Of a stretch of DNA of 25,879 nucleotides, positions 2,070-24,409 are shown one piece after another. The first letter of the stretch is position 1. Each line of letters opens with the position of its first letter. The position numbers were made by a program, and so were the translations under genes. The stretch is from Clostridia bacterium (GTDB taxonomy: Bacteria > Bacillota > Clostridia > Christensenellales > DUVY01): positions 1 through 25,879 of the forward strand of contig BNZQ01000025.1 in assembly GCA_026001225.1 (NCBI GenBank), read 5' to 3'. Under the pieces are notes generated by a model. That model saw only the letters and a list, made by a program, of their open reading frames with translations. It did not search any database and had not been told where the DNA came from.

Positions 2070-2456
2070 ATGGCACGTATAGCCGGTGTAGATTTGCCCC
2101 GCGAGAAGCGGACGGAAATCGGGTTGACTTATCTGTACGGAATCGGGCGGCCCACCGCGAACAAGATCCTCAAAGCGACGGGGGTCAATCCCGACACGCG
2201 CGTCAAAGACCTGACCGAGACGGATGTCAGCAAATTGCGCGAGTATATCGACAAGAATATCGTCGTCGAAGGCGACTTAAAGCGCGACGTTCAACTGTCC
2301 ATTAAACGGTTGGTCGAAATCGGTTGCTACCGCGGCGTTCGGCACCGCAAGAACTTGCCCGTCCGCGGCCAAAGCAGCAAGCGCAACGCCCGCACGAGAA
2401 AGGGCAAGCGGCGCACCGTGGGGCGTACGAATAAGCCCGCTCCCGCTAAAACTTGA
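2070..2456 (+). CDS. rpsM: Ribosomal protein S13 (uS13)
   Basis: S13 lies in the head of the 30S subunit and contacts tRNA and the 50S subunit. The 128-residue protein starts [14 protein letters not shown], has the helix-turn-helix part ([11 protein letters not shown]) and the basic tail [11 protein letters not shown]...[11 protein letters not shown]. Length is slightly above the usual 121-125. A strong AAAGGAGA site precedes ATG 2070. The last two codons and the stop lie inside a perfect 20-bp inverted repeat (A1), so any change in that arm would alter the protein end. Confidence 0.98.
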
Positions 2457-2593
2457 TTTATAAAGGCGGATATGCGTCGCGATACGGCGTCATAAAAAAT
2501 TTTTCTCGGTCACGTAGAATGAACTACGCTTCCGTCGAAAAAATTTATCTTCCTTGTCTCGTTCGCGTCGGCACCTTTATAAATCAAGTTTTA
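2447..2593. repeat. Palindromic repeat A1 between rpsM and rpsK
   Basis: The ends form a perfect 20-bp inverted repeat, 2447-2466 and 2574-2593, and the left arm includes the last codons of rpsM. Inside are a second pairing (AAATTTTTCTCGG with CCGTCGAAAAAATTT) and an apical hairpin GTAG-AATGAA-CTAC. The core TCTCGGTCA.GTAG......CTAC.CT.CC.TCG is shared with A2, A3 and A4. A1 and A2 also share GGATA.GC.TCGCGATAC and CCTTGTCTCG, so they form a subgroup. Confidence 0.85.
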
Positions 2594-2662
2594 CTCAACC
2601 GAAATTATGAATTGCATTAACATTACGAATTGAAATAATCGATAGGAGTAAAAACATAAAAT

Positions 2663-3121
2663 ATGGCTGAACAAGAAAAAGCCGTCGTTCAAGCGAGCGC
2701 GGTTGCGGAAAAAGGCGGAAAAGCCGCCGCGGGTAAAAAGTCTGCGGGCGGGCGTAAGAAAAAAAACACGCGGCACGTGGATCGGGGCGCGGTGCATATC
2801 CGCAGTTCGTTTAACAATACGATCGTCACGATCACCGACCGCGAGGGGAATACCATCGCGGCGAGTAGTTCGGGCGCGATGCAGTTCAAGGGCAGCCGTA
2901 AAAGCACGCCTTACGCCGCGCAGGTCGTCGCCGAGAACGCCGCGCGCAAGGCGGCCGACTATGGTTTGAAATCCGTCGAGGTGTTCGTCAAAGGCCCCGG
3001 CAACGGCAGGGAGGCCGCGATCCGCGCGCTGTCCAACGCCGGCTTGAACGTCACGATGATTCAGGACGTGTCGCCGATACCGCATAACGGGTGTCGGCCG
3101 CCGAAACGCCGCCGCATATAA
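2663..3121 (+). CDS. rpsK: Ribosomal protein S11 (uS11)
   Basis: S11 is on the 30S platform and contacts mRNA near the E site. The conserved body begins near residue 36 ([23 protein letters not shown]) and ends [17 protein letters not shown], the family C-terminus. At 152 residues it is about 20 longer than usual because of an Ala/Lys-rich N-terminal extension (residues 1-34). ATG 2663 is the first start in frame after an AGGAG at 2644-2648; the 14-nt spacing is long. No later ATG with a better site was seen before the conserved domain. The stop codon lies within the left arm of repeat A2. Confidence 0.96.
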
Positions 3122-3270
3122 CGGAGGATACGCTTCGCGATACTGCGTCAAACGAAAATTTTCTCGGGGTCATGTAGGTCTTACTACACTCCCCCTCGAA
3201 AATTTCCGTTTTCCTTGTCTCGCTCGCGTCTGCGCCGTTATATCGCACCGTTGCGGCGTGTCTATGCCTT
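3112..3270. repeat. Palindromic repeat A2 (mosaic) between rpsK and rpsD
   Basis: ATATAACGG at 3116-3124, which includes the rpsK stop, pairs with CCGTTATAT at 3235-3243. An inner stem pairs GAAAATTTTCTCGGGG with CCCCCTCGAAAATTTCCG around the apex GTAG-GTCTTA-CTAC. The sequence just after, 3245-3270 (ACCGTTGCGGCGTGTCTATGCC), closely matches the right end of copy A3 (CCCGTTGCGGCGCGTCTATGCC). This spacer therefore looks like an A1-type copy joined to the remaining right end of an A3-type copy. Confidence 0.8.
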
Positions 3271-3310
3271 TAAAAAGCTTGTCGAGGGCATACTGTAAAT
3301 AGGATAAATA

Positions 3311-3362
3311 AAAGTTTTTGGGAAAGGTTCGGAAAACACTTTTTGTCAAAAAGTGTTTTCCG
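3311..3362. repeat. Hairpin repeat B1 upstream of rpsD
   Basis: A perfect 15-bp stem, CGGAAAACACTTTTT (3330-3344) and its complement (3348-3362), closes on a 3-nt loop. It is preceded by AAAGTTTTTGGGAAAGG (3311-3327), a tail whose reverse complement follows hairpin B5 at 8269-8285. It ends 45 nt before the rpsD start. No U-tract follows, so it is not a typical terminator on the + strand. Confidence 0.8.
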
Positions 3363-3407
3363 ACAAATGGCAATAAATAGCTTATCAAATCAAGGAGATA
3401 GAAGAAA

Positions 3408-4028
3408 GTGGCTAAATACACGGAAGCGGATTGCAGGCTCTGCAGACGCGAAGGCACAAAATTGTTTTTAAAGGGCGAGCGTTGCACGAGTAAGAAGTGC
3501 GCGGTCGAAAAACGTCCCGCGCCTCCCGGCCAACACGGCCTCAGTCGTAAAAAGGTGTCCGAGTACGGCACGCAGCTGCGCGAGAAGCAGAAGGCGAAGC
3601 GCGCCTACGGGCTTTTGGAACGGCAGTTTCGTCAATACTACGAGCGAGCGTCGAGCATGAAGGGCAACACCGGCGAGCAGATGATTTGTTTGCTCGAACG
3701 GCGTCTCGATAACGTGGCGTTCCGCATGGGCATCGGCGGGAGCCGCGCCGAAAGCCGTCAAATCGTCAACCACGGTCATCTCACGGTCAACGGCAAGAAC
3801 GTCAATATTCCGAGCTATCAGGTCAAGGCGGGCGACGTGATCGCCGTTAAGGACAGCAAAAAGGACAACGCGATCTTCAAGGAATTGAAGGGCGCAAAGA
3901 TCACGATGCCGAAGTGGCTCACGTTCGACACCGAGGCCTTAAAGGGCTCGATCGTCGAACTGCCCAAACGCGAGGATGCCGACTTGACCATCAAGGAACA
4001 CATGATCGTCGAGTTGTACAGCAAGTAA
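3408..4028 (+). CDS. rpsD: Ribosomal protein S4 (uS4), zinc-binding form
   Basis: S4 nucleates 30S assembly by binding 16S rRNA and in many bacteria represses its own operon. The 206-residue protein has an N-terminal zinc knuckle (C9, C12, C26, C31), then the RxxP-GQHG segment, and an S4 RNA-binding domain in the middle (LERRLDNVAFRMG, then SRAESRQIVNHGHLTVNG). It begins with GTG at 3408, served by AAGGAG at 3392-3397; no ATG in frame lies nearby. The end LTIKEHMIVELYSK is the family C-terminus. It is full length. Confidence 0.98.
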   Translation: MAKYTEADCRLCRREGTKLFLKGERCTSKKCAVEKRPAPPGQHGLSRKKVSEYGTQLREKQKAKRAYGLLERQFRQYYERASSMKGNTGEQMICLLERRLDNVAFRMGIGGSRAESRQIVNHGHLTVNGKNVNIPSYQVKAGDVIAVKDSKKDNAIFKELKGAKITMPKWLTFDTEALKGSIVELPKREDADLTIKEHMIVELYSK

Positions 4029-4111
4029 AGTAAAAGGTAAAAAGTGCGGACGGATCAAATCGTTTTGTCAATTAAACCGAAGTTCTTATTTTTTACCTAT
4101 TACTTTTTACT
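4023..4111. repeat. Foldback repeat C3 between rpsD and rpoA
   Basis: The left arm, 4023-4045 (AGTAAAGTAAAAGGTAAAAA), includes the rpsD stop codon. The right arm, 4089-4111 (TTTTTTACCTATTACTTTTT), is its approximate reverse complement. Its layout is the same as in C1 and C2, but the base sequence differs, so the arms match each other better than they match the other copies. Confidence 0.55.
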
Positions 4112-4172
4112 GAATCAATAAGCGGTATATAAATGTCAGTAACATAAAAAATGGAGGTCATTGCACATAGTC

Positions 4173-5126
4173 ATGATGGAAATAGAAAAGCCCAAAATCC
4201 TTTGCGAAGAGAGCTCGGACTCCGCCTACGCCAAGATCACCGTGGAGCCTTTGGAACGCGGTTTCGGCATTACGTTGGGGAATACGTTGCGGCGCGTGTT
4301 GCTGTCAAGCTTGCCGGGGGCGGCGGTTGTCGGCATCAAGATCGAGGGCGTCATGCACGAGTTTTCCACGATCAAGGGCGTGACCGAGGACGTTGCGGAA
4401 ATCATTCTGAACCTGAAAAATTTGCATATCAAGCTACTTTCCTCTGATAAAAGCGTCAAAAAATCCCTGCGCCTGAAAAAGGACGCGGCGGGCACGGTGA
4501 CGGCACGCGATATCGACGCCGATCCGGAAGTGGAAATTCTGAATCCCGATTTTTATATCTGCACGATGGACAACGGCGCGAAGATCGACATGGAATTGAT
4601 CGTCGGCAGGGGCAGGGGCTATGTTTCGGCGGATAAAAATAAAAACCCCGCGTTGCCGCTCGGCTATATCCCGATCGACAGCATCTTCACGCCCATAAAG
4701 AAGGTCAACTACGAGGTCGAAAGCACACGCGTCGGTCAGAATATCGACTATGACAAGCTGATTTTTGAAGTTTGGACGAACGGCACGATGAGCGCGCGCG
4801 AAATCGTCAGCTTGGCCGCTAAAATCGTCGAGGATCACATCCGCCTGTTCGTCAATTTGTCCGAAACGGTGTCGGGTATGGATATCCTGATCAATCCTGC
4901 GATCGACAAAACCACGAGGGTTTTGGAAATGAATATCGAGGACATGGATTTATCGGTTCGCAGCTACAATTGCTTAAAGCGCGCCGGTATTCATACCGTC
5001 GAGGACTTGACCAAGAAGACCGAGGACGATATGCTGAAAGTGCGCAATTTGGGCCGCAAGTCCTTGGACGAGGTGATTCACAAATTGCAGAGATTAGGTT
5101 TGGATTTAAAGCCGAAAGAGGAATAG
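4173..5126 (+). CDS. rpoA: RNA polymerase subunit alpha
   Basis: The alpha dimer is the scaffold of RNA polymerase and its C-terminal domain reads UP elements and activators. The N-terminal domain spans residues 1 to about 230 (MEIEKPKI, GFGITLGNTLRRVLLSSLPG, EFSTIKGVTEDVAEIILNLK) and the C-terminal domain is the last 75 (LSVRSYNCLKRAGIHTVEDL, VRNLGRKSLDEV). From ATG 4173 the protein has 317 residues, the usual size. The frame also offers TTG 4161 and ATG 4176. GGAGG at 4153-4157 is only 3 nt from the TTG and 15 nt from ATG 4173, so the start is uncertain by a few residues. The product is certain. Confidence 0.97.
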   Translation: MMEIEKPKILCEESSDSAYAKITVEPLERGFGITLGNTLRRVLLSSLPGAAVVGIKIEGVMHEFSTIKGVTEDVAEIILNLKNLHIKLLSSDKSVKKSLRLKKDAAGTVTARDIDADPEVEILNPDFYICTMDNGAKIDMELIVGRGRGYVSADKNKNPALPLGYIPIDSIFTPIKKVNYEVESTRVGQNIDYDKLIFEVWTNGTMSAREIVSLAAKIVEDHIRLFVNLSETVSGMDILINPAIDKTTRVLEMNIEDMDLSVRSYNCLKRAGIHTVEDLTKKTEDDMLKVRNLGRKSLDEVIHKLQRLGLDLKPKEE

Positions 5127-5128
5127 CA

Positions 5129-5200
5129 AAAGTTTTTGGAAAGGGGTATGCGGGGAAAACTTTTTGGCAAAAAAGTTTTCCCCGCGCCTCATTCAAAAAA
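5129..5200. repeat. Hairpin repeat B2 upstream of rplQ
   Basis: The stem GCGGGGAAAACTTTTT (5150-5165) pairs with AAAAAAGTTTTCCCCGC (5169-5185). Outside it, GTTTTTGGAAAGGGG (5131-5145) pairs imperfectly with CCTCATTCAAAAAAC, giving a palindrome of about 70 nt that starts right after the rpoA stop. It has the same AAAGTTTTTGGNAAAGG tail as B1. An AAGGAG ribosome binding site follows at 5214-5219. Confidence 0.8.
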
Positions 5201-5228
5201 CGTTCGTATTATTAAGGAGTAAATAATT

Positions 5229-5765
5229 ATGCCGTCTCATCGTAAATTAGGAATGCCGACAGACCAACGCATGGCTGTTCTCAAAAATCAGGCCTCGAAC
5301 CTGCTTTGGTATGGAAAGATAGAAACCACGCTGGCCACGGCGCGGGACGTTCGACGTTACACGGAAAAGCTGATCACCGTCGCGGTGCGGAACTTCGAGG
5401 ACATCGCCAAGGTCGAAAAGACCGTGCTGGTGACCTCTAAAAAAGGCAAGAACAAGGGCGAAAAGACGCCCGAAAAACGTATCGTCAACAACGACGGCCC
5501 GAAGAAGCTTGCCGCGCGCCGTAAATTGATGGCCGCGTTGGTCGATCTGCCCGATCCGATGCTGGAAACCGAGAATATGGCGGCCTATAAAATCCGCACA
5601 AAGGATATCAAGCATCCGTTGATCGAGAAAATTTTCAACGAGCTCGCGCCGAAATACAAGGACCGCGAGACCGAATTGAAGCAGGGCGGCGGTTATACGC
5701 GTATCGTCAAGCTGGGAATGCGGCGCGGCGATGCGGCCGAGATGGCGATTATTGAGTTGGTTTAA
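5229..5765 (+). CDS. rplQ: Ribosomal protein L17 (bL17), long form
   Basis: L17 is a 50S protein near the exit tunnel. The start MPSHRKLGMPTDQRMAVLKNQASNLL and the end YTRIVKLGMRRGDAAEMAIIEL match the family. At 178 residues it is about 60 longer than the usual 113-120. The extra part lies in the middle (about residues 70-140) and is Lys-rich, then acidic (KKGKNKGEKTPEKRIV, DLPDPMLETENMAAYKIRTK). Long forms are known in some Clostridia. The AAGGAG site before ATG 5229 is clear. It is the last ribosomal gene of the cluster. The stop codon lies inside repeat A3. Confidence 0.96.
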   Translation: MPSHRKLGMPTDQRMAVLKNQASNLLWYGKIETTLATARDVRRYTEKLITVAVRNFEDIAKVEKTVLVTSKKGKNKGEKTPEKRIVNNDGPKKLAARRKLMAALVDLPDPMLETENMAAYKIRTKDIKHPLIEKIFNELAPKYKDRETELKQGGGYTRIVKLGMRRGDAAEMAIIELV

Positions 5766-5887
5766 TCATATACATCGCCGGATCGGGGTAACGCTTAATT
5801 TGCCGCCTCGGTCATGTAGGGGGTTATACACTCCCTTCGGCGGCGAAATCAACGGTTGTCCCGTTGCGGCGCGTCTATGCCGTTAAA
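5761..5887. repeat. Palindromic repeat A3 between rplQ and the ROK kinase
   Basis: The whole spacer folds as one long imperfect palindrome of about 47-nt arms. TTTAA pairs with TTAAA at the ends, then CGCCG, CGGG, AAC, ATTT and GCCGCC pair with GGCGGC and its partners. The apex is the conserved TCGGTCATGTAG...ACACTCCCTTCGG. The left end contains the rplQ stop codon. Paired blocks differ from those of A4, yet each copy matches itself. Confidence 0.85.
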
Positions 5888-5929
5888 TCCGGTCCCGGCA
5901 GATTTGTCGGGACATGATTTTTTAAGGCG

Positions 5930-5979
5930 AAAATTTTTGAAAAAGCGCGAAAAAATCTTTTTCTAAAAAGTTTTTTCGC
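5930..5979. repeat. Hairpin repeat B3 upstream of the ROK kinase
   Basis: GCGAAAAAATCTTTTT (5947-5962) pairs with AAAAAGTTTTTTCGC ending at 5979, with one bulge. It is preceded by the A-rich version of the B tail (AAAATTTTTGAAAAAGCGCG). It ends 25 nt before ATG 6005 of the kinase. It is the most AT-rich member of the family. Confidence 0.7.
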
Positions 5980-6004
5980 AAAATAAAAACACGAATAAAG
6001 GGAT

Positions 6005-6967
6005 ATGGATAAAAATACTTTTAAAATCGGTTTGGATATCGGCGGGACAGCGGTCAAGGCGGGCGCGGTGGACGGCACGGGCAAGATTTTGGCCAAGGGC
6101 TCGATCGAGACCGGCGCGCAGCGGCCTTATACGAATATCATTCGGGACGTCGCCGCCGTCGCGTTCAAGGTCGCAAAGGACGCGGGAATCGAGTGGGACA
6201 AAATATCCGGCGTCGGCGTGGGCGTGCCCGGTACGGTCAATTCGACGACCGGTGAGGTCGTTTACGCGAACAATCTCGCGTTTCGCAACGTGCCGCTGGG
6301 GAGCGAGCTGTCCAAGCTTTTAAAGAAAACCGTGAAGGCGGAGAACGATGCCAACGCGGCGGGCTATGGGGAATATCTGTTCGGCGCGGGGCGCAAATAT
6401 CAAAGTAGCGTTTTCTTTACGCTCGGAACGGGCGTAGGCGGCGGGATCATTGCGGACGGCAAGATTTTTTCGGGCTTTAAATCGGCGGGCGCGGAGGTCG
6501 GGCATATCGTTATTGCGCACGGCGGCGCGCCCTGCACCTGCGGTCGGCGCGGCTGTTTCGAGGCGTATGCCTCGGCGACGGGCTTGATCCGGCTGACGGG
6601 GGAAACGGCTCAAAAATATCCGCAGTCGGTTTTGGCGAAATTGGTCGCGGAACGGCATAAGGCGGGCAAGGACGCAGGCGGAAAGACCGCGTTCGACGCG
6701 GCGGCCGCGGGTGATCGGGCGGGCTGCGAGGTCCTCGACGCTTACATAGATTACCTTTCCGAGGGGATCGTCAACGTCGTGAACGTGATCCGGCCGCAGG
6801 CGGTCATCGTCGGCGGCGGCGTTAGCGCGCAGGGCGAGGCGTTGCTCGCGCCCCTGCGCGAGAGCTGTTATAAAAAGGTGTACGGCGGTGTCGAATACGC
6901 GCCGTTCGACGTGCTGAAAGCCGAATTGGGTAATGATGCCGGGTTGGTGGGCGCAGCCTTTCTTTAA
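6005..6967 (+). CDS. ROK-family sugar kinase, probable glucokinase
   Basis: ROK kinases phosphorylate glucose or related sugars with ATP. The 320-residue protein has the ATP-phosphate loop DIGGT (11-15), the catalytic aspartate D115 in ENDANAAGYGE, the GTGVGGGI loop (141-148), the sugar-binding E164/H167 (AEVGHIVI) and the ROK zinc site C177-T-C179-GRRG-C184. All key residues are present. Length equals that of Bacillus-type GlcK. ATG 6005 follows AAAGGG closely. It is not clearly in an operon: repeats A3 and B3 precede it and A4 and B4 follow. Glucokinase is most likely, but N-acetylmannosamine or fructose kinase cannot be ruled out. Confidence 0.9.
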   Translation: MDKNTFKIGLDIGGTAVKAGAVDGTGKILAKGSIETGAQRPYTNIIRDVAAVAFKVAKDAGIEWDKISGVGVGVPGTVNSTTGEVVYANNLAFRNVPLGSELSKLLKKTVKAENDANAAGYGEYLFGAGRKYQSSVFFTLGTGVGGGIIADGKIFSGFKSAGAEVGHIVIAHGGAPCTCGRRGCFEAYASATGLIRLTGETAQKYPQSVLAKLVAERHKAGKDAGGKTAFDAAAAGDRAGCEVLDAYIDYLSEGIVNVVNVIRPQAVIVGGGVSAQGEALLAPLRESCYKKVYGGVEYAPFDVLKAELGNDAGLVGAAFL

Positions 6968-7086
6968 AAGACATATCCATCGCCGGATACGGGCTACGTT
7001 TGGCTTCCCACCTCGGTCATGTAGGTCTGACTACTCCCTTCGGCGGCTCGCCAACTGTTGCCCGTCTGCGGCGCGGCTATGTCTTT
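6967..7086. repeat. Palindromic repeat A4 between the ROK kinase and trpS
   Basis: AAAGACATA (6967-6975) pairs perfectly with TATGTCTTT (7078-7086). Inside, CGCCG pairs with CGGCG, ACGGGC with GCCCGT, and TTGGC with GCCAA. The apex has GTAG-GTCTGA-CTAC in the shared core TCGGTCATGTAG...CTACTCCCTTCGG. The left arm starts at the last base of the kinase stop codon. This is the clearest fold of the four copies. Confidence 0.88.
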
Positions 7087-7107: not shown

Positions 7108-8219
<1,112 letters not shown>

Positions 8220-8231
8220 GATTTAGGAATT

Positions 8232-8285
8232 TGCGGAAAACTCTTTTTGTAAAAAGGAGTTTTCCGCACCTTTCCCAAAAACTTT
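8232..8285. repeat. Hairpin repeat B5 after trpS (inverted orientation)
   Basis: TGCGGAAAACTCTTTTT (8232-8248) pairs with AAAAAGGAGTTTTCCGCA (8251-8268). It is followed by CCTTTCCCAAAAACTTT (8269-8285), the reverse complement of the tail that precedes B1. B5 is thus the same element as B1-B4 in the opposite orientation, and it lies directly behind a stop codon. It may end the trpS transcript, though no U-tract follows. Confidence 0.8.
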
Positions 8286-8467: not shown

Positions 8468-9229
8468 ATGAAATTGTTGAACAAGACAAGCTGGTACATG
8501 CTGTTGGGCGGTTTTATCGCGTATTGGGTGTACGGCTTTGTGGGTATGCTCATCACGTTGGGCAACGCGGCCGCGCAAGCCCAAAGTATGCTCGACGCCT
8601 ATGACCGCTTGGGGGTGAACACGGGCTTGACGGCCGAATCGATCCGAAGCGTCGTCGTCACGTTCGCCGTGATCGGCTTTTTGATCACGGTCGGATTGTC
8701 GCTGATTTTCTTTTTCAAGGCTCTTTCCCATCGGAAAACGCCCCAGAGAGGCACGTATTTGACGGTCTTGCTGGTTTTCTTGATCATCTTCGCGGTGTTC
8801 GGCCTGTTCTCCCTGATCGTCGGTACCTACCTCGTTCTGATCGATTACGTGATCTATGGCGTCATGATCGCCGCGATTTATCTGCAAAGGAGCAATAAAA
8901 CGCCTGTCGTTCAACCGCCCTTGCCGGTCTATTACGGACAGCCCATGACGCCCCCCAACGCCGATCCCTATCAGCAAAATCCGTATCAACCGAACCAACA
9001 AAACTCCTATCAACAGAATCCGTATCGGCAGAACCCCTACGGACAGCAACCGAATCCGTATCAACAGAATCAGCAAAGTCCCTACGGGCAAAACCCCTAT
9101 CAAGCGCCCGTCAATCCGAATCCTTATCAATCGCAGCAGAATCCCTACGGGCAACAGCCGCAGGATCCGTTCGGCGGCGAATACGGACAGAACGGACAAG
9201 ACAAACCGAAGGACGATCAAAACGGATAA
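8468..9229 (+). CDS. Four-helix membrane protein with Gln/Asn/Pro/Tyr-rich tail
   Basis: I do not recognise a family. The 253-residue protein has four predicted membrane helices, about residues 9-31, 62-83, 96-116 and 119-138. The last 110 residues are low-complexity, made of NPYQQN, NPYGQQ and QQNPYG units, with a charged end. The loop after helix 2 is basic (KALSHRKTPQRG) and suggests a cytoplasmic side. The ATG at 8468 follows GGGAGG at 8455-8460 by 7 nt, so the gene is well supported. Tails of this kind occur in membrane proteins of unknown function and may drive clustering or bind cell wall. It stands alone, with its own likely promoter and a terminator at 9285. Confidence 0.85.
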   Translation: MKLLNKTSWYMLLGGFIAYWVYGFVGMLITLGNAAAQAQSMLDAYDRLGVNTGLTAESIRSVVVTFAVIGFLITVGLSLIFFFKALSHRKTPQRGTYLTVLLVFLIIFAVFGLFSLIVGTYLVLIDYVIYGVMIAAIYLQRSNKTPVVQPPLPVYYGQPMTPPNADPYQQNPYQPNQQNSYQQNPYRQNPYGQQPNPYQQNQQSPYGQNPYQAPVNPNPYQSQQNPYGQQPQDPFGGEYGQNGQDKPKDDQNG

Positions 9230-20014: not shown

Positions 20015-23000
20015 TTACTTCCTTTTCTTGAATTTGCCGCGTTTACGGAACAGATATACCGCTACGCCGCCGCCGATTAGGGCCAAAATTACGATTATGA
20101 TAATGACGGTTCCGGCGGTGTTTACGGAATAGATTATGTCAAAGGTATACTCGGTCGCGTTGCCCGCTGTGTCTGTTACGACGATGCGATACGAGCCGAT
20201 TTCGGTCAAGGGTTCGCCCAAGGCGTAAGGGATAAGGCCGCCGTTACGGTAGACCGCGACGGTCGCGGGTTCGGACAAATTGCGGATTGATACCGCGCCC
20301 GAAGTAGAGCCGCCGTTCGTTACGCCGACAAGCTCGGCGGTCGGCGGGGTCGTGTCGAGCGTAAAGGTTACAGTCGTTACGTTGCCCGCAAGGTCGGTGA
20401 CGGTGATTTCATATTCGCCGTCGGACGATATTTCCGCGCCGCTTATCACCGCGCCGACAAGGGTTCCGTTTCGGTAAAGCAAGGCGGTACAGCCGTCCTC
20501 ATACGTCACGGTCACGGGGGTTGTCGTCATAGGTTCGGTCAAATCGCCGGAGCCGTCGATAATGCTAACGACGGGCGCGGCCGTCTTGATTGTAAAGGTG
20601 TAGACCGCCTCGAAACCGTTGCCGTCGTAGAACGTCAGGGCGTATTCGCCGTCCTCGGTCAGCTCCGCGCCGGACTTGTATTCGACCGTGTTGCCGTCAA
20701 AGGTAACGGTCGCATTTGCCTCGTCCGTCCAAGTAAAGCGGACGGTTCCGTTGGTGTAGCCGCCGTCGGTAGCGCCGATAAGCGTTCCGCTCGGCGCGGG
20801 CTTTAAGTACGCTTTTTCCGCCGTCACTGCGTCGATACCGCTGCGGAAATTGTCCTCGGCAGATACCTTGTAAAGCCCGTCGCGGTTGAATTCATAGTAC
20901 AGCCTGTCCGCGTTTACCGCTCTGCCGTAATCGTCCTTATCGAGCGTCAGCCAAGTTTTCCCGCTATCGACGGATTTATAAATCCGTGTTTCGGATAACG
21001 TCGCGCCGCCGTCCGTACTCGGTTCTATCCGTATTTCCAAACGCTTCGCGTCGCCGTTTTCTCTGAATGTAATCGTCGGATAATCAAGCGAAAGGACAAA
21101 GGTTGTTTCCAAAGACAGCCCGCCGTGGTTGATTGCCTGTACGGTGAAGCGTCCGCTTTTGGATAAGACGTACCCGTCGCCGTGGCTCAATGTCGCTATG
21201 ACCCCGCCCAAGGTGTCGCGGATAATGTACATAGCAAAGTCGCCGCCGAGAGCGTCCGATATTTTCAGCGTAACCGCTTCCTTAAACGCGTAAATCCTGT
21301 CGTCCGCCGCCTTGTTGAACGCGCCGCCCGACAGCTTGTAGTAAATGTCCGGCGCGGTGCGGACGATTATCAAGGTGTATTCGTAGCTGTTGCCGAAGTC
21401 GTCGTACACGGTCAAAATGTGTTCGCCCCCGTCCGAATAGGTAAGGCCGGAATACGGTTCGCCGTCGATAAGGTAGTTCGCGTGGCTTGCAAGGGTTACG
21501 CCGTTTCCGACAAAAATCCTGTCGGCGGTAAGACCGTATAGGTCGTTGCCGCTCTTAATTTCGGAGGGAGCCTTTTCCCACCACCAATAGGCTTTGACCG
21601 ATTCGGCGGCGTACTCCGCAATAACCGCATTAAGGCGGTCAAGGGTAAAGTAGGCAACCTCCGCATTTTTGTCGCCGGATTTTTTGTAGATGTAATAGGT
21701 TCCGTTTTCGGCGTTCACGCTGTCGGCACCGTCCATCGGAATACCGCCGTCCCACGTCGAGCCGCTCCAAACCGCCGTCCGAATGAGCGCGGATTCCCGC
21801 GCTTTCGCAAAGGCGAAAGCGTTATCGTAAGTGCCAAAGGCGTACCGCTCAACCGCGCCGTCGGTCGTGCCAATGGCACTTTCCCAAAATTGTTTATTCA
21901 AGGTTTGGGACAATACTTCCGTTCTTGTCGCTGTAAATTCCGTCGTCCAAATATTGCCCGCCGCGTCCGTGGATTCGACGCGGTACACGCCGCCGTCAAT
22001 CGTCCGTAACACATTGCCTCTGCCGTAAGGAACATCGTTGACCGTCACCGAAACGATAGGCGCGGCCGTCGAAAGGTCGCCGTCCGTCCACGTGACCGTG
22101 ACGTTATCCAAAGCCCTGCCGTTTGCAAGACCGTTCACCGCGACGGGCTTTCCCGTCCTGTCGATGATAACGGCGTAAATATCGGTCGCGTTTCCCGCGC
22201 TATCCTCGGCGTAAAACTCGTAGCGACCCGCCGCCGTGTAGGTGTAGTAGTGCGCGTAAGGCGTGAAGCCCGAAGCGTCCGGCAGTTTGACATATGCCTT
22301 AACCTCACCGCTTGCCGACATAGCGATTCGCGCCGCATTGGTGTAGGTTCCGTTATTGACGGGTTGTTCGTCGGCATACAGCAGGACGGTCGGAGTGGAA
22401 GTTAAGAGATAAACCTTGCTCTCCTCGGACACATTGCCCGCTCTATCCGTGGCGCGGAAAGAGTACAGACCGTCGCCGCCGTTTGTCGGGATTTCGCCGC
22501 CGTCATAGGCTTGCCAATCGCCGTTCGGGTATTTTACTTCAAGCCCGATTACGCCGCTCACGCTATCCGCCGCCGCATACCGAAACGCGGTATTTACGTA
22601 GCTCCCGCTCGCAACCTGCGCGCCGTTTGCCGTAACCGTACCCACGGGGCTTGTCGTGTCGAGCGTTACGCTAACCGTGTCGCTCATGTTGCCCGCAACG
22701 TCCGTCGCATAAAAGGTATATGTTCCCTCGCGGGACAGGGGCGTACCCGTAACATAGGATATATACCCGCCCGAATCGGGAATCCGCACATACATTCCGG
22801 CTATACCGCTGCCCGCGTCGCTTGCCGCAAAAGTAACGTAATTCTTGTTTGTAAATGCGCCGCTTGTAACGGTCGTACCGCTCGCGTATGCCGTAACAAC
22901 AGGCTTTGTTTTATCAAGCAGGACGGACACGGTTGCCGAAGTGTTGCCGGATTTATCAGCCGCGTAGAAGTAATATGTTCCGTCGGCGGTAAATTGTGTC

Positions 23001-24409
23001 CCGCTTGTAAAGGTCACATAGCCCGACGCGTTCGGCTTGTAGACATAGAGCGCGTAGGCGTCCGTCGCAGTATACGTCACATAGGCGGCGTTGGTAATCT
23101 TGCCGCTCGAAAAGGTAGCCGTCCCCGCGTAAAGCGTTCCTACGGGCGCGGCTCGGTCAAGCGTTATTGTATAGGTCGCCGTCGTGTTTCCGGCGGGGTC
23201 AATGGCGTAGAACGAGTAAACGCCCTCGGCGGTTACGTTCGTCCCCGAAGCGTAAACGCCATAGCTCCCGCCGTCCTTTTTCATGTATACCGTGCAACCG
23301 TTTGTGTCCGAAGCCGTAAAGCGGATATAGCTTGCGTTGGAATAATAGCCGCCCGATACCGCCGTTGTGCCGGAATAGAGATGGGCGGTCGGCGCGGTGC
23401 GGTCGAGCGTTACGGTGTATGTCGCGGAATAATTATCGGCGTTGTCGCGGGCATAGTAGCAATACAGTCCTTCCGTGCTTAACGTGACCGATGACGTGTA
23501 TTTGGTATAGCCGCTTGCCGTCGAAAGCCTTACATACAGCCCCTCTAATCCCGAAGTCGAATCCGAAGCCTCGAATCGTAACGAAGCCGCGCCGACGTTC
23601 GCGCCGCTCGATAGTTTCGCCGAACCGTTGTACGCGCCGATTGCGGGCGCGGTCGTGTCCCGCGTGACCGTTACCGTGTCGCTTACGTTTCCGGCGCGGT
23701 CTTTTGCATAAAAGCTGTAAACGCCGTCCCCGTAAAAGTAGGTGCTTGCCGTACATTCATAATACGAGCCGCCGCCTATTTTGTACCAATAGCTTGCAAC
23801 GCCGCTTACGTCGTCCGTTCCGAGCAGGGAAAAGTACGAGCCGGGCAACGTTGTCACCGTGCCGCCCGCAATCGAGCTACCGTTGAGCCGGACTTGAAGC
23901 TGCGGTTTTACCGTGTCCAAACAAATCGAGCTTACCTTGCTGTAATCGCCTTTCGGACTCGGCTTGTAGCTTCTGTAATACCGCCAGCCGTCCGCGTTTG
24001 AAGCGGAAAACATCTGATGCGTTCCTAACACGGTATAATCCCAATTCACGCTGTCGTAGGAATATTGAAACTGCGGAAAATCGTCGTGGGCGGTATACCC
24101 GTAGGCTTTATTCGTATAGCTTCCGCTCGATACGTTTGTATTCTTGTCGCCCGCGTGCAGCGTGCCGTACGCGTCGATTTCTTCGGGTATCTTGAATAAG
24201 TCCTCCCACCATCCGAGGGGAACGACGCTTACGCCGCCGGATTCCGCGCCGTTATATCCCAACGTTGACGGGGTTATAGCGGCGGCCGCGCCGGTACTTT
24301 GCGTATCGTCCTTTTTCACGCTTCTTAAAACGACCGAAACGATAAAAAAGGACACTACGAGTGCAAGCAGTACGCTTAACATAATGATTTTTGTTTTATG
24401 ATTTTTCAC
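20015..24409 (-). CDS. Large surface protein with tandem Ig-like repeats
   Basis: A 1464-residue protein. Residues 8-29 are a signal/membrane helix; the end has a second helix (VIIIIVILALIGGGVAVYLF) and a basic RKRGKFKKRK tail, with no LPxTG motif. Between them are at least eight tandem repeats of about 65-75 residues from about 165 to 750, each with D-x-T-x-P at the start, a (Y/F)TAxD(S/T) core, SG..Y..N...Y..F and EG.YSFYA.D.AGN. More divergent copies follow, the last near residue 1350. They resemble bacterial Ig-like adhesin domains. GTG 24409 follows GGAGG by 8 nt and overlaps the TraG gene end by 14 nt, so it is co-translated with the coupling ATPase. A role in donor-recipient contact is inference. 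Confidence 0.85.
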   Translation of the reverse strand: MKNHKTKIIMLSVLLALVVSFFIVSVVLRSVKKDDTQSTGAAAAITPSTLGYNGAESGGVSVVPLGWWEDLFKIPEEIDAYGTLHAGDKNTNVSSGSYTNKAYGYTAHDDFPQFQYSYDSVNWDYTVLGTHQMFSASNADGWRYYRSYKPSPKGDYSKVSSICLDTVKPQLQVRLNGSSIAGGTVTTLPGSYFSLLGTDDVSGVASYWYKIGGGSYYECTASTYFYGDGVYSFYAKDRAGNVSDTVTVTRDTTAPAIGAYNGSAKLSSGANVGAASLRFEASDSTSGLEGLYVRLSTASGYTKYTSSVTLSTEGLYCYYARDNADNYSATYTVTLDRTAPTAHLYSGTTAVSGGYYSNASYIRFTASDTNGCTVYMKKDGGSYGVYASGTNVTAEGVYSFYAIDPAGNTTATYTITLDRAAPVGTLYAGTATFSSGKITNAAYVTYTATDAYALYVYKPNASGYVTFTSGTQFTADGTYYFYAADKSGNTSATVSVLLDKTKPVVTAYASGTTVTSGAFTNKNYVTFAASDAGSGIAGMYVRIPDSGGYISYVTGTPLSREGTYTFYATDVAGNMSDTVSVTLDTTSPVGTVTANGAQVASGSYVNTAFRYAAADSVSGVIGLEVKYPNGDWQAYDGGEIPTNGGDGLYSFRATDRAGNVSEESKVYLLTSTPTVLLYADEQPVNNGTYTNAARIAMSASGEVKAYVKLPDASGFTPYAHYYTYTAAGRYEFYAEDSAGNATDIYAVIIDRTGKPVAVNGLANGRALDNVTVTWTDGDLSTAAPIVSVTVNDVPYGRGNVLRTIDGGVYRVESTDAAGNIWTTEFTATRTEVLSQTLNKQFWESAIGTTDGAVERYAFGTYDNAFAFAKARESALIRTAVWSGSTWDGGIPMDGADSVNAENGTYYIYKKSGDKNAEVAYFTLDRLNAVIAEYAAESVKAYWWWEKAPSEIKSGNDLYGLTADRIFVGNGVTLASHANYLIDGEPYSGLTYSDGGEHILTVYDDFGNSYEYTLIIVRTAPDIYYKLSGGAFNKAADDRIYAFKEAVTLKISDALGGDFAMYIIRDTLGGVIATLSHGDGYVLSKSGRFTVQAINHGGLSLETTFVLSLDYPTITFRENGDAKRLEIRIEPSTDGGATLSETRIYKSVDSGKTWLTLDKDDYGRAVNADRLYYEFNRDGLYKVSAEDNFRSGIDAVTAEKAYLKPAPSGTLIGATDGGYTNGTVRFTWTDEANATVTFDGNTVEYKSGAELTEDGEYALTFYDGNGFEAVYTFTIKTAAPVVSIIDGSGDLTEPMTTTPVTVTYEDGCTALLYRNGTLVGAVISGAEISSDGEYEITVTDLAGNVTTVTFTLDTTPPTAELVGVTNGGSTSGAVSIRNLSEPATVAVYRNGGLIPYALGEPLTEIGSYRIVVTDTAGNATEYTFDIIYSVNTAGTVIIIIVILALIGGGVAVYLFRKRGKFKKRK

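Follow-up and report, generated by a model that had tools for sequence, protein, structure and literature searches.

Repeats of the miniature inverted-repeat transposable element (MITE) type, such as ERIC, RUP and NEMIS, have constant terminal repeats, and the small dispersed repeats of cyanobacteria are hairpins that show compensatory differences between copies and are thought to be mobile. Integron attC sites lie behind genes, end in constant AAC/GTT triplets and are structures in which unpaired bases matter. Repetitive extragenic palindromes (REPs) are 20–40 bp long, bear a GTAG or CGTC tag at one end and lie mostly near the 3′ end of the upstream gene (PMC3733652). Here we describe long hairpins from a 25.9-kb contig (BNZQ01000025.1, 25,879 nucleotides; the whole stretch is called the window below) of a Clostridia bacterium whose genome assembly (G000, the source genome) comprises 2.19 Mb in 230 contigs and is 78% complete. 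Four palindromes in the left part of the window are members of a large, apparently undescribed family of mobile hairpin DNA repeats in one order of Clostridia. Its members vary by compensatory change around fixed mismatches, stand in sense orientation at stop codons and tRNA ends, and are present or absent at orthologous sites. We give a probability of roughly 0.5 to the reading that these palindromes represent a short non-coding repeat, mobile in the recent past, that forms a single imperfect hairpin, spreads as folded DNA and is conserved in fold more than in sequence.

An earlier note on this DNA had reported four long palindromes, and all four lie where it placed them and fold as long stems. 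The second is slightly shorter than had been proposed, since its continuous outer arms cover only 3116–3243 rather than 3112–3270. The four copies, with the family types to which they belong, are as follows.

Copy 1 (type 2), 2447..2593, + strand: overlaps the end of rpsM, with arms TAAAACTTGATTTATAAAGG / CCTTTATAAATCAAGTTTTA; the tip module begins at 2508.
Copy 2 (type 2), 3116..3243, + strand: overlaps the rpsK stop codon, with arms ATATAACGG / CCGTTATAT; the tip module begins at 3168.
Copy 3 (type 1), 5761..5887, + strand: overlaps the rplQ stop codon, with arms TTTAA.../...TTAAA; the tip module begins at 5810.
Copy 4 (type 1), 6967..7086, + strand: begins at the final base of the stop codon of the ROK-kinase gene, with arms AAAGACATA / TATGTCTTT; the tip module begins at 7015.

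Their minimum free energies gave z values of −6.9, −4.9, −3.4 and −5.6 for copies 1 to 4 against 200 dinucleotide shuffles each, and in every case 0/200 shuffles reached the observed energy. The R1 covariance model, which itself contains these copies, matched at 2494–2547 (E 6.6e-9), 3154–3207 (E 7.0e-13), 5796–5849 (E 6.6e-8) and 7001–7052 (E 5.7e-7). The four have a module in common, which copies 3 and 4 carry in slightly broken form. It consists of a short helix with a variable closing loop; an internal loop that is asymmetric, with TCA facing CT; G-C pairs; and another loop, in which TC faces CKTC or a similar sequence. The idea of a shared core holds for the module and not for the letters quoted for it, from which every copy departs: copy 1 reads GGTCACGTAG and CTACGCTTCCGTCG, copy 2 has an additional two G before TCA and two C after it, copy 3 has ATAC in place of CTAC, and copy 4 has two bases fewer between CTAC and TCCC.

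The source genome holds about 75 members of the family, with 77 covariance-model matches at E ≤ 0.1 in a census that scored 150 of 316 candidates. The model of the tip was built from 77 sequences over 54 positions; its E-values are rough, and 44 of the 77 sequences come from the source genome and match by construction. A first sequence pattern found 64 places in this genome against 12 for a reversed control, and an exact-pattern search across 61 genomes gave a single control match; pattern searches of this kind select by the tip motif and miss copies with broken tips. The search of genome and relatives with the covariance model recovered many further copies. Across the order, 108 of 248 genomes have a match at E ≤ 0.01, with at most 23 candidates scored per genome, so that copy numbers there are lower bounds. 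The most matches were obtained in G036 (66) and in the genome of locus L081 (73), and Candidatus Gallimonas merdae had 2, Candidatus Gallimonas merdigallinarum 12 and Pumilibacter muris CLA-AA-M08, a strain of a cultured species from the mouse gut, 8. A class-wide draw yielded matches at E ≤ 0.001 in 5 of 196 genomes, two from the same order and three from other orders. Most copies are full-length hairpins of about 120–150 bases, and several genomes carry tandem arrays in which copies are spaced about 117–157 bases apart. We sorted the family into types 1–3 by simple motifs; from a working set of 63 entries, 8 coding-like false positives were dropped from the genomic counts, and 6 further truncated or diverged copies were dropped from the tests of the arms.

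The earlier note could put no name to the family, which agrees with the database and literature searches made here. None of the four hairpins was matched by an Rfam 15 covariance model at E values up to 1, and a known Rfam family was rejected on that basis; the literature on dispersed palindromes, on repeats of the order, on template switching and on attC held no description of the family. A viral collection contained 13 stretches with the exact pattern, which is about chance level by a rough, uncomputed estimate, and a phage-borne element was rejected given the rarity of the pattern in viral contigs.

Each copy is a single long imperfect hairpin with a conserved tip, helices that swap Watson–Crick pairs, and fixed mismatches. 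Many of the stem changes are compensatory, and the view that differences between copies reflect covariation of a kept structure is strongly supported. In the tip, 9 of 11 predicted pairs show changes on both sides among 85 aligned copies (two example columns read GC40/CG28/UA16 and UA44/CG37), and the module is kept across families of the order. Type-2 copies were registered on the motif TCGCRATAC with at most two changes, a procedure that partly chooses the 5′ letters of columns 0–8 and leaves their partners free. In the 82 copies so aligned, mismatches occupy columns −6 (T.C, 67/72), 0 (T.T, 61/74), 6 (T.C, 57/76), 9–11, 13 (T.T, 55/78) and 19–20. The main mismatch columns form Watson–Crick pairs in 4–23% of copies, and the helix columns between them pair in 74–100%, mostly above 85%, several of them with three or four Watson–Crick types; columns −8, −1 and 21 are mixed, with Watson–Crick pairs in 42–53%. 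Types 1 and 3 have fixed mismatches of their own (T.T 17/23, G.G 22/23 and T.C 21/23). On the sense strand, pyrimidine–pyrimidine combinations, which are purine–purine on the other strand, account for 389 of 617 mismatches in the source genome and 888 of 1261 elsewhere; sense-strand purine–purine mismatches number 57 and 68. In several genomes, two positions of the internal loop alter jointly, GGTCA...CTCC becoming GGTTA...CGCC (L044, L048, L054, L068, L076 and L081, among others).

The outer stems had been described as differing from copy to copy while remaining self-complementary. The fit of each arm to its own partner is clear: the mean score was 19.65 for own arms versus 11.24 for swapped arms in 49 genome copies (0/2000 permutations as good), and the own 3′ arm ranked top of all in 21 of the 49. 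The stems are not, however, unrelated to the ends of other copies, and many in the genome have by eye a common end like TTTAACGGC.../...GCCGTTAAA, altered pairwise. The 3′ arm also mirrors the final coding bases of the upstream gene. Comparison of the six bases before the stop with the mirrored flank in 28 sense copies gave 79 matches where 45.4 ± 6.3 were expected (0/5000 permutations), with mirrored runs of at least 3 bases in 8 copies versus 1.5 expected; copy 1 and L026, which have the long end AAAACTTGATT in common, are not independent.

Such mirroring raises the question of whether the pairing is a mutational by-product and nothing else, with template switching between the arms perfecting palindromes that have no function. 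Template switching is a known mechanism (PMC8794818, PMC8604942), which counts in favor of this explanation, as do the gene-specific bases mirrored at the hairpin base and the many paired double changes seen even between close copies. In 25 pairs of close copies, in which some copies recur so that the pairs are not independent, we counted 41 paired double changes; in 76 further cases a base pair was lost through a single change, which left G.U in 10, A.C in 27, a pyrimidine pair in 35 and a purine pair in 4. Against it, fixed mismatch columns stay mostly unpaired beside covarying helices of few pairs, the tip module is conserved across the order's families, and none of 86 distinct loops is inverted, so that spacer inversion was rejected as a sign of template switching. 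Arm-to-arm correction, raised in the earlier note, is supported at the base of the hairpin, where gene-specific bases recur in the 3′ arm, but lacks support as the sole cause of the pairing, for mismatches persist a few bases from helices that covary. We consider a pure by-product unlikely.

Placement at gene ends is unusually strict. The window runs rpsM-rpsK-rpsD-rpoA-rplQ-ROK kinase-trpS in its left part, and the genes upstream of the four copies are these.

rpsM (S13), 2070..2456, + strand: upstream of copy 1; stop codon 2454–2456 within the 5′ arm of copy 1.
rpsK (S11), 2663..3121, + strand: upstream of copy 2; stop codon 3119–3121 within the 5′ arm of copy 2.
rplQ (L17), 5229..5765, + strand: upstream of copy 3; stop codon 5763–5765 within the 5′ arm of copy 3.
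ROK-family sugar kinase gene, 6005..6967, + strand: upstream of copy 4; stop codon 6965–6967 at the first base of the arm (top model ROK_glcA_fam at 233 bits, under the model's cut-off of 260).

When a fixed 25-base window was set at the base of the hairpin and open frames of 270 bases or more were counted, 30 of 51 copies in the source genome and 37 of 66 elsewhere had an in-frame sense stop there. In the mirror position, at the 3′ base, the corresponding numbers were 3 and 1, and shifted windows of the same width gave 0–6 and 3–7. These shifted controls belong to a repeat of the test, an earlier longest-ORF (open reading frame) rule having sometimes taken non-gene frames; the codon scoring used for the gene strand was trained on window genes. 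Anchoring at a sense stop differs by type, with 8/10 for type 1, 15/19 for type 2 and 5/17 for type 3. In L001 and L004 the upstream frame continues into the element. At four loci in four genomes, the tip begins exactly 50 bases past the 3′ end of a tRNA, which is also the distance found for stop codons; the tRNAs are tRNA-Leu (L147 and L148, from different genomes of a single genus), tRNA-Glu (L150) and tRNA-Val (L154).

Strong hairpins behind genes could be ordinary intrinsic terminators, and this is the least probable of the explanations we weighed. A run of at least five T follows none of the four copies, copies 1 and 2 lie within a ribosomal-protein operon, and the + strand terminator-like sites at 5892–5913 (behind copy 3) and 6941–6959 are not the hairpins. 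With no T run directly after the window hairpins and the scan sites elsewhere, intrinsic terminators were rejected. A minus-strand terminator candidate lies inside the 5′ arm of copy 4. In L156, L157, L147 and L154, a terminator-like hairpin with a T-rich tail can be seen by eye inside the 5′ arm, and terminator and long hairpin would therefore be mutually exclusive there.

Sites that carry an element in some congeners lack it in others. The nearest relatives by RpoA are Clostridia metagenome genomes; the RpoA of the best of them, the congener locus L063, is 92% identical. The genome of L063 has 24 model matches and none at the four window sites, where other spacers are found. The locus belongs to G435, which agrees with G001 in every listed place; among the loci compared, covering 7 of the 24 G001 copies, none lay beside a copy of the source genome, and one locus has a 341-base stretch in common, at its far end. 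Other long imperfect palindromes, without the family's tip module, stand at ribosomal-operon junctions of this congener (L063:1855–2070 and L063:2830–2965). In genus g17, a site behind one gene, SecA-like by its C-terminus as judged by eye, holds three tandem copies in G223 and one different copy in G019 and is empty in G169, G192, G144, G157 and G245. The site keeps its stop codon, and in the two genomes that have the element, this starts immediately after the stop.

Some copies are nearly identical to one another, and some stand in tandem arrays. The inner arms of L010 and L022 are identical save for one base, and their tip helix and loop differ as a block. The pattern-matched copies of G036 have just two tip helices, CACGTAC/GTACG and CATTTAC/GTAAA, with loops shared between them, which suggests exchange between copies. 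Behind several copies in this genome (L230–L241) come a stretch common to them and a further repeat (TGTCATTTCGACCGA...GGAGAAATCCCC), in places immediately ahead of the next copy.

The earlier note had left open RNA or cruciform, and the balance of pair types speaks somewhat for a cruciform or other DNA structure. In columns where at least 60% of copies pair, the sense strand shows 131 G.U and 166 A.C combinations, so that G.U is not in excess. By region, at a 75% threshold and moving outward from the tip, the G.U/A.C counts are 30/18 in the sub-apical helix, 21/36 in the middle and 29/44 in the outer helix, for totals of 84 and 100 that include 4/2 in the tip helix itself. As a control, 291 pairs in 14 tRNAs gave 24 G.U and 0 A.C, a count that depends on ARAGORN's own pairing rule. 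In rRNA, G-U pairs are affected in 78.5% of two-step compensations (PMC8794818). The antisense strand folds better than the sense strand in 45/49 source-genome copies and 89/100 others with RNA parameters, and in 45/49 and 93/100 (138/149 overall) with DNA parameters. The absence of a G.U excess over A.C in paired columns and the better antisense fold favor a structure kept as DNA over one kept as messenger RNA, without settling the question. We read the pairing of the outer arms as kept or renewed at the DNA level and leave the tip open.

Several observations weigh against a mobile repeat kept as folded DNA. Strict sense placement at stops and tRNA ends is more naturally that of a signal read in RNA, and the main rival explanation is that the hairpins are RNA elements of the 3′ untranslated regions of messengers (protein-bound, or processing or stability signals), mobile but selected as RNA. 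The sense orientation directly behind stop codons and tRNA genes and the conserved, asymmetric tip module fit this explanation. So do the G.U excess near the tip, seen in the sub-apical helix and in the 11 tip pairs of a MAFFT alignment (42 G.U versus 13 A.C), and the excess that other genomes show when every aligned position is counted, those of the mismatch columns too (185 versus 120; the source genome gave 86 and 85). These excesses weaken the case for DNA over RNA. Type 3 tells against both explanations, for its copies often lie between opposite-strand genes and 12 of 17 have no sense-stop anchor. Selection as RNA is further opposed by the lack of any G.U preference in the middle and outer helices, by the sense strand being the weaker fold, and by the members in which, by eye, a terminator-like hairpin occupies the 5′ arm, so that the full hairpin would rarely be transcribed. 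On balance we regard selection as RNA as possible, though clearly short of probable.

Other difficulties concern mobility itself. No target-site duplication was evident at the one gene end compared in genus g17 across seven congeners, whose spacers are too diverged for the 3′ end of the element to be fixed. A mobilizing enzyme was not found, and no tested enzyme family tracks copy number: by eye, Y1 transposases occur in 8 of 19 high-copy genomes, weak matches included, versus 91 of 248 overall, and reverse transcriptases in 6 of 19 versus 56 of 248, so that an element borne by reverse transcriptase finds no association with copy number in this comparison. Recent insertions in G036 and G223 have uniform ends with no evident gene-specific mirroring by eye; mirroring is thus not part of every insertion, and it seems, from these two genomes, to arise later. 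The same enzyme searches bear on REP-like repeats mobilized by RAYT (Y1) transposases and on attC-like integron sites. REPs also lie near 3′ ends and may supply a stop codon (PMC3733652), and attC sites are hairpins with an active bottom strand (PMC2117344). Both are nonetheless very unlikely here. The copy-rich genomes G000, G036 and G223 have no Y1 match, and REP/RAYT was rejected for want of association between Y1 transposases and copies. No integron integrase (TIGR02249) exceeded the cut-off in 248 genomes, with one weaker match in G013, and attC was rejected on this count; nor are the outer ends constant as in attC, being TTTAACGG, TTTGACGG and AAAGACATA in G000 and CTGACGG in G036.

Returning to a repeat that is mobile as DNA, the observations could be explained if the element spreads as folded DNA, most likely as a one-strand hairpin, and if a host or element enzyme recognizes the tip module and the spaced mismatches; the helices would then be free to change while still pairing. 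New copies may insert, or be retained, immediately downstream of genes. The arms of an inserted copy may then copy each other locally, and in this way the 3′ arm would come to mirror the gene's last bases. A more specific version, which we hold to be doubtful, is a structure-recognized single-strand DNA (or cDNA) element that inserts precisely at the 3′ boundary of finished genes, after stop codons and, with an identical offset, after the ends of mature tRNAs, through machinery sensing where translation or a mature RNA ends. If true, it would represent a new class of mobile element, defined by its fold rather than by terminal sequence and served by no known transposase family.

The window contains further repeats. 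A second hairpin family occurs at 3311–3372, 5129–5190, 7112–7160 and 8215–8285, with a constant flank AAAGTTTTTGGAAAGG and variable inner stems; searched with up to two mismatches, the flank has 105 places in the genome versus 31 for a reversed control. A tandem-like repeat stretch at 8978–9167 has units of 49 bases, and an ORF of 1464 aa at 20015–24409 carries repeated blocks of about 42–68 bases each.

Compensatory change is usually taken as proof of RNA structure, and this family, which has hundreds of copies in the order, covaries strongly but bears no clear G.U signature in the outer arms. It provides a natural case in which to test for covariation that arises at the level of DNA. In Clostridia genomes it might be mistaken for an RNA family, and as a candidate mobile element it stands out for the exactness with which it is placed at the ends of genes.

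Among known systems, the family resembles REPs and their paired forms (REPINs) as a set of dispersed small palindromes predominantly close to gene 3′ ends. It differs from them in its length, mostly 120–150 bases, in that each member is a single hairpin whose arms are its own, with mismatches at intervals and a module at the tip, and in showing no association with RAYT. With the MITE-like ERIC, RUP and NEMIS repeats (the subject of PMC2759123 and PMC2229807) it has in common a non-autonomous, palindromic and intergenic character and a size in their range of about 100–170 bp; unlike those repeats, its arms diverge pairwise, and types 1 and 2 lie mostly at stop codons. Lineage, tip module and stop-codon placement set it apart from the cyanobacterial small dispersed repeats, a separation made by description rather than by sequence. 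The likeness to attC is a hairpin behind a gene whose bottom strand is the active fold, the latter being a feature of attC, and the differences are that no cassette array was seen and that the tip is constant rather than the ends.

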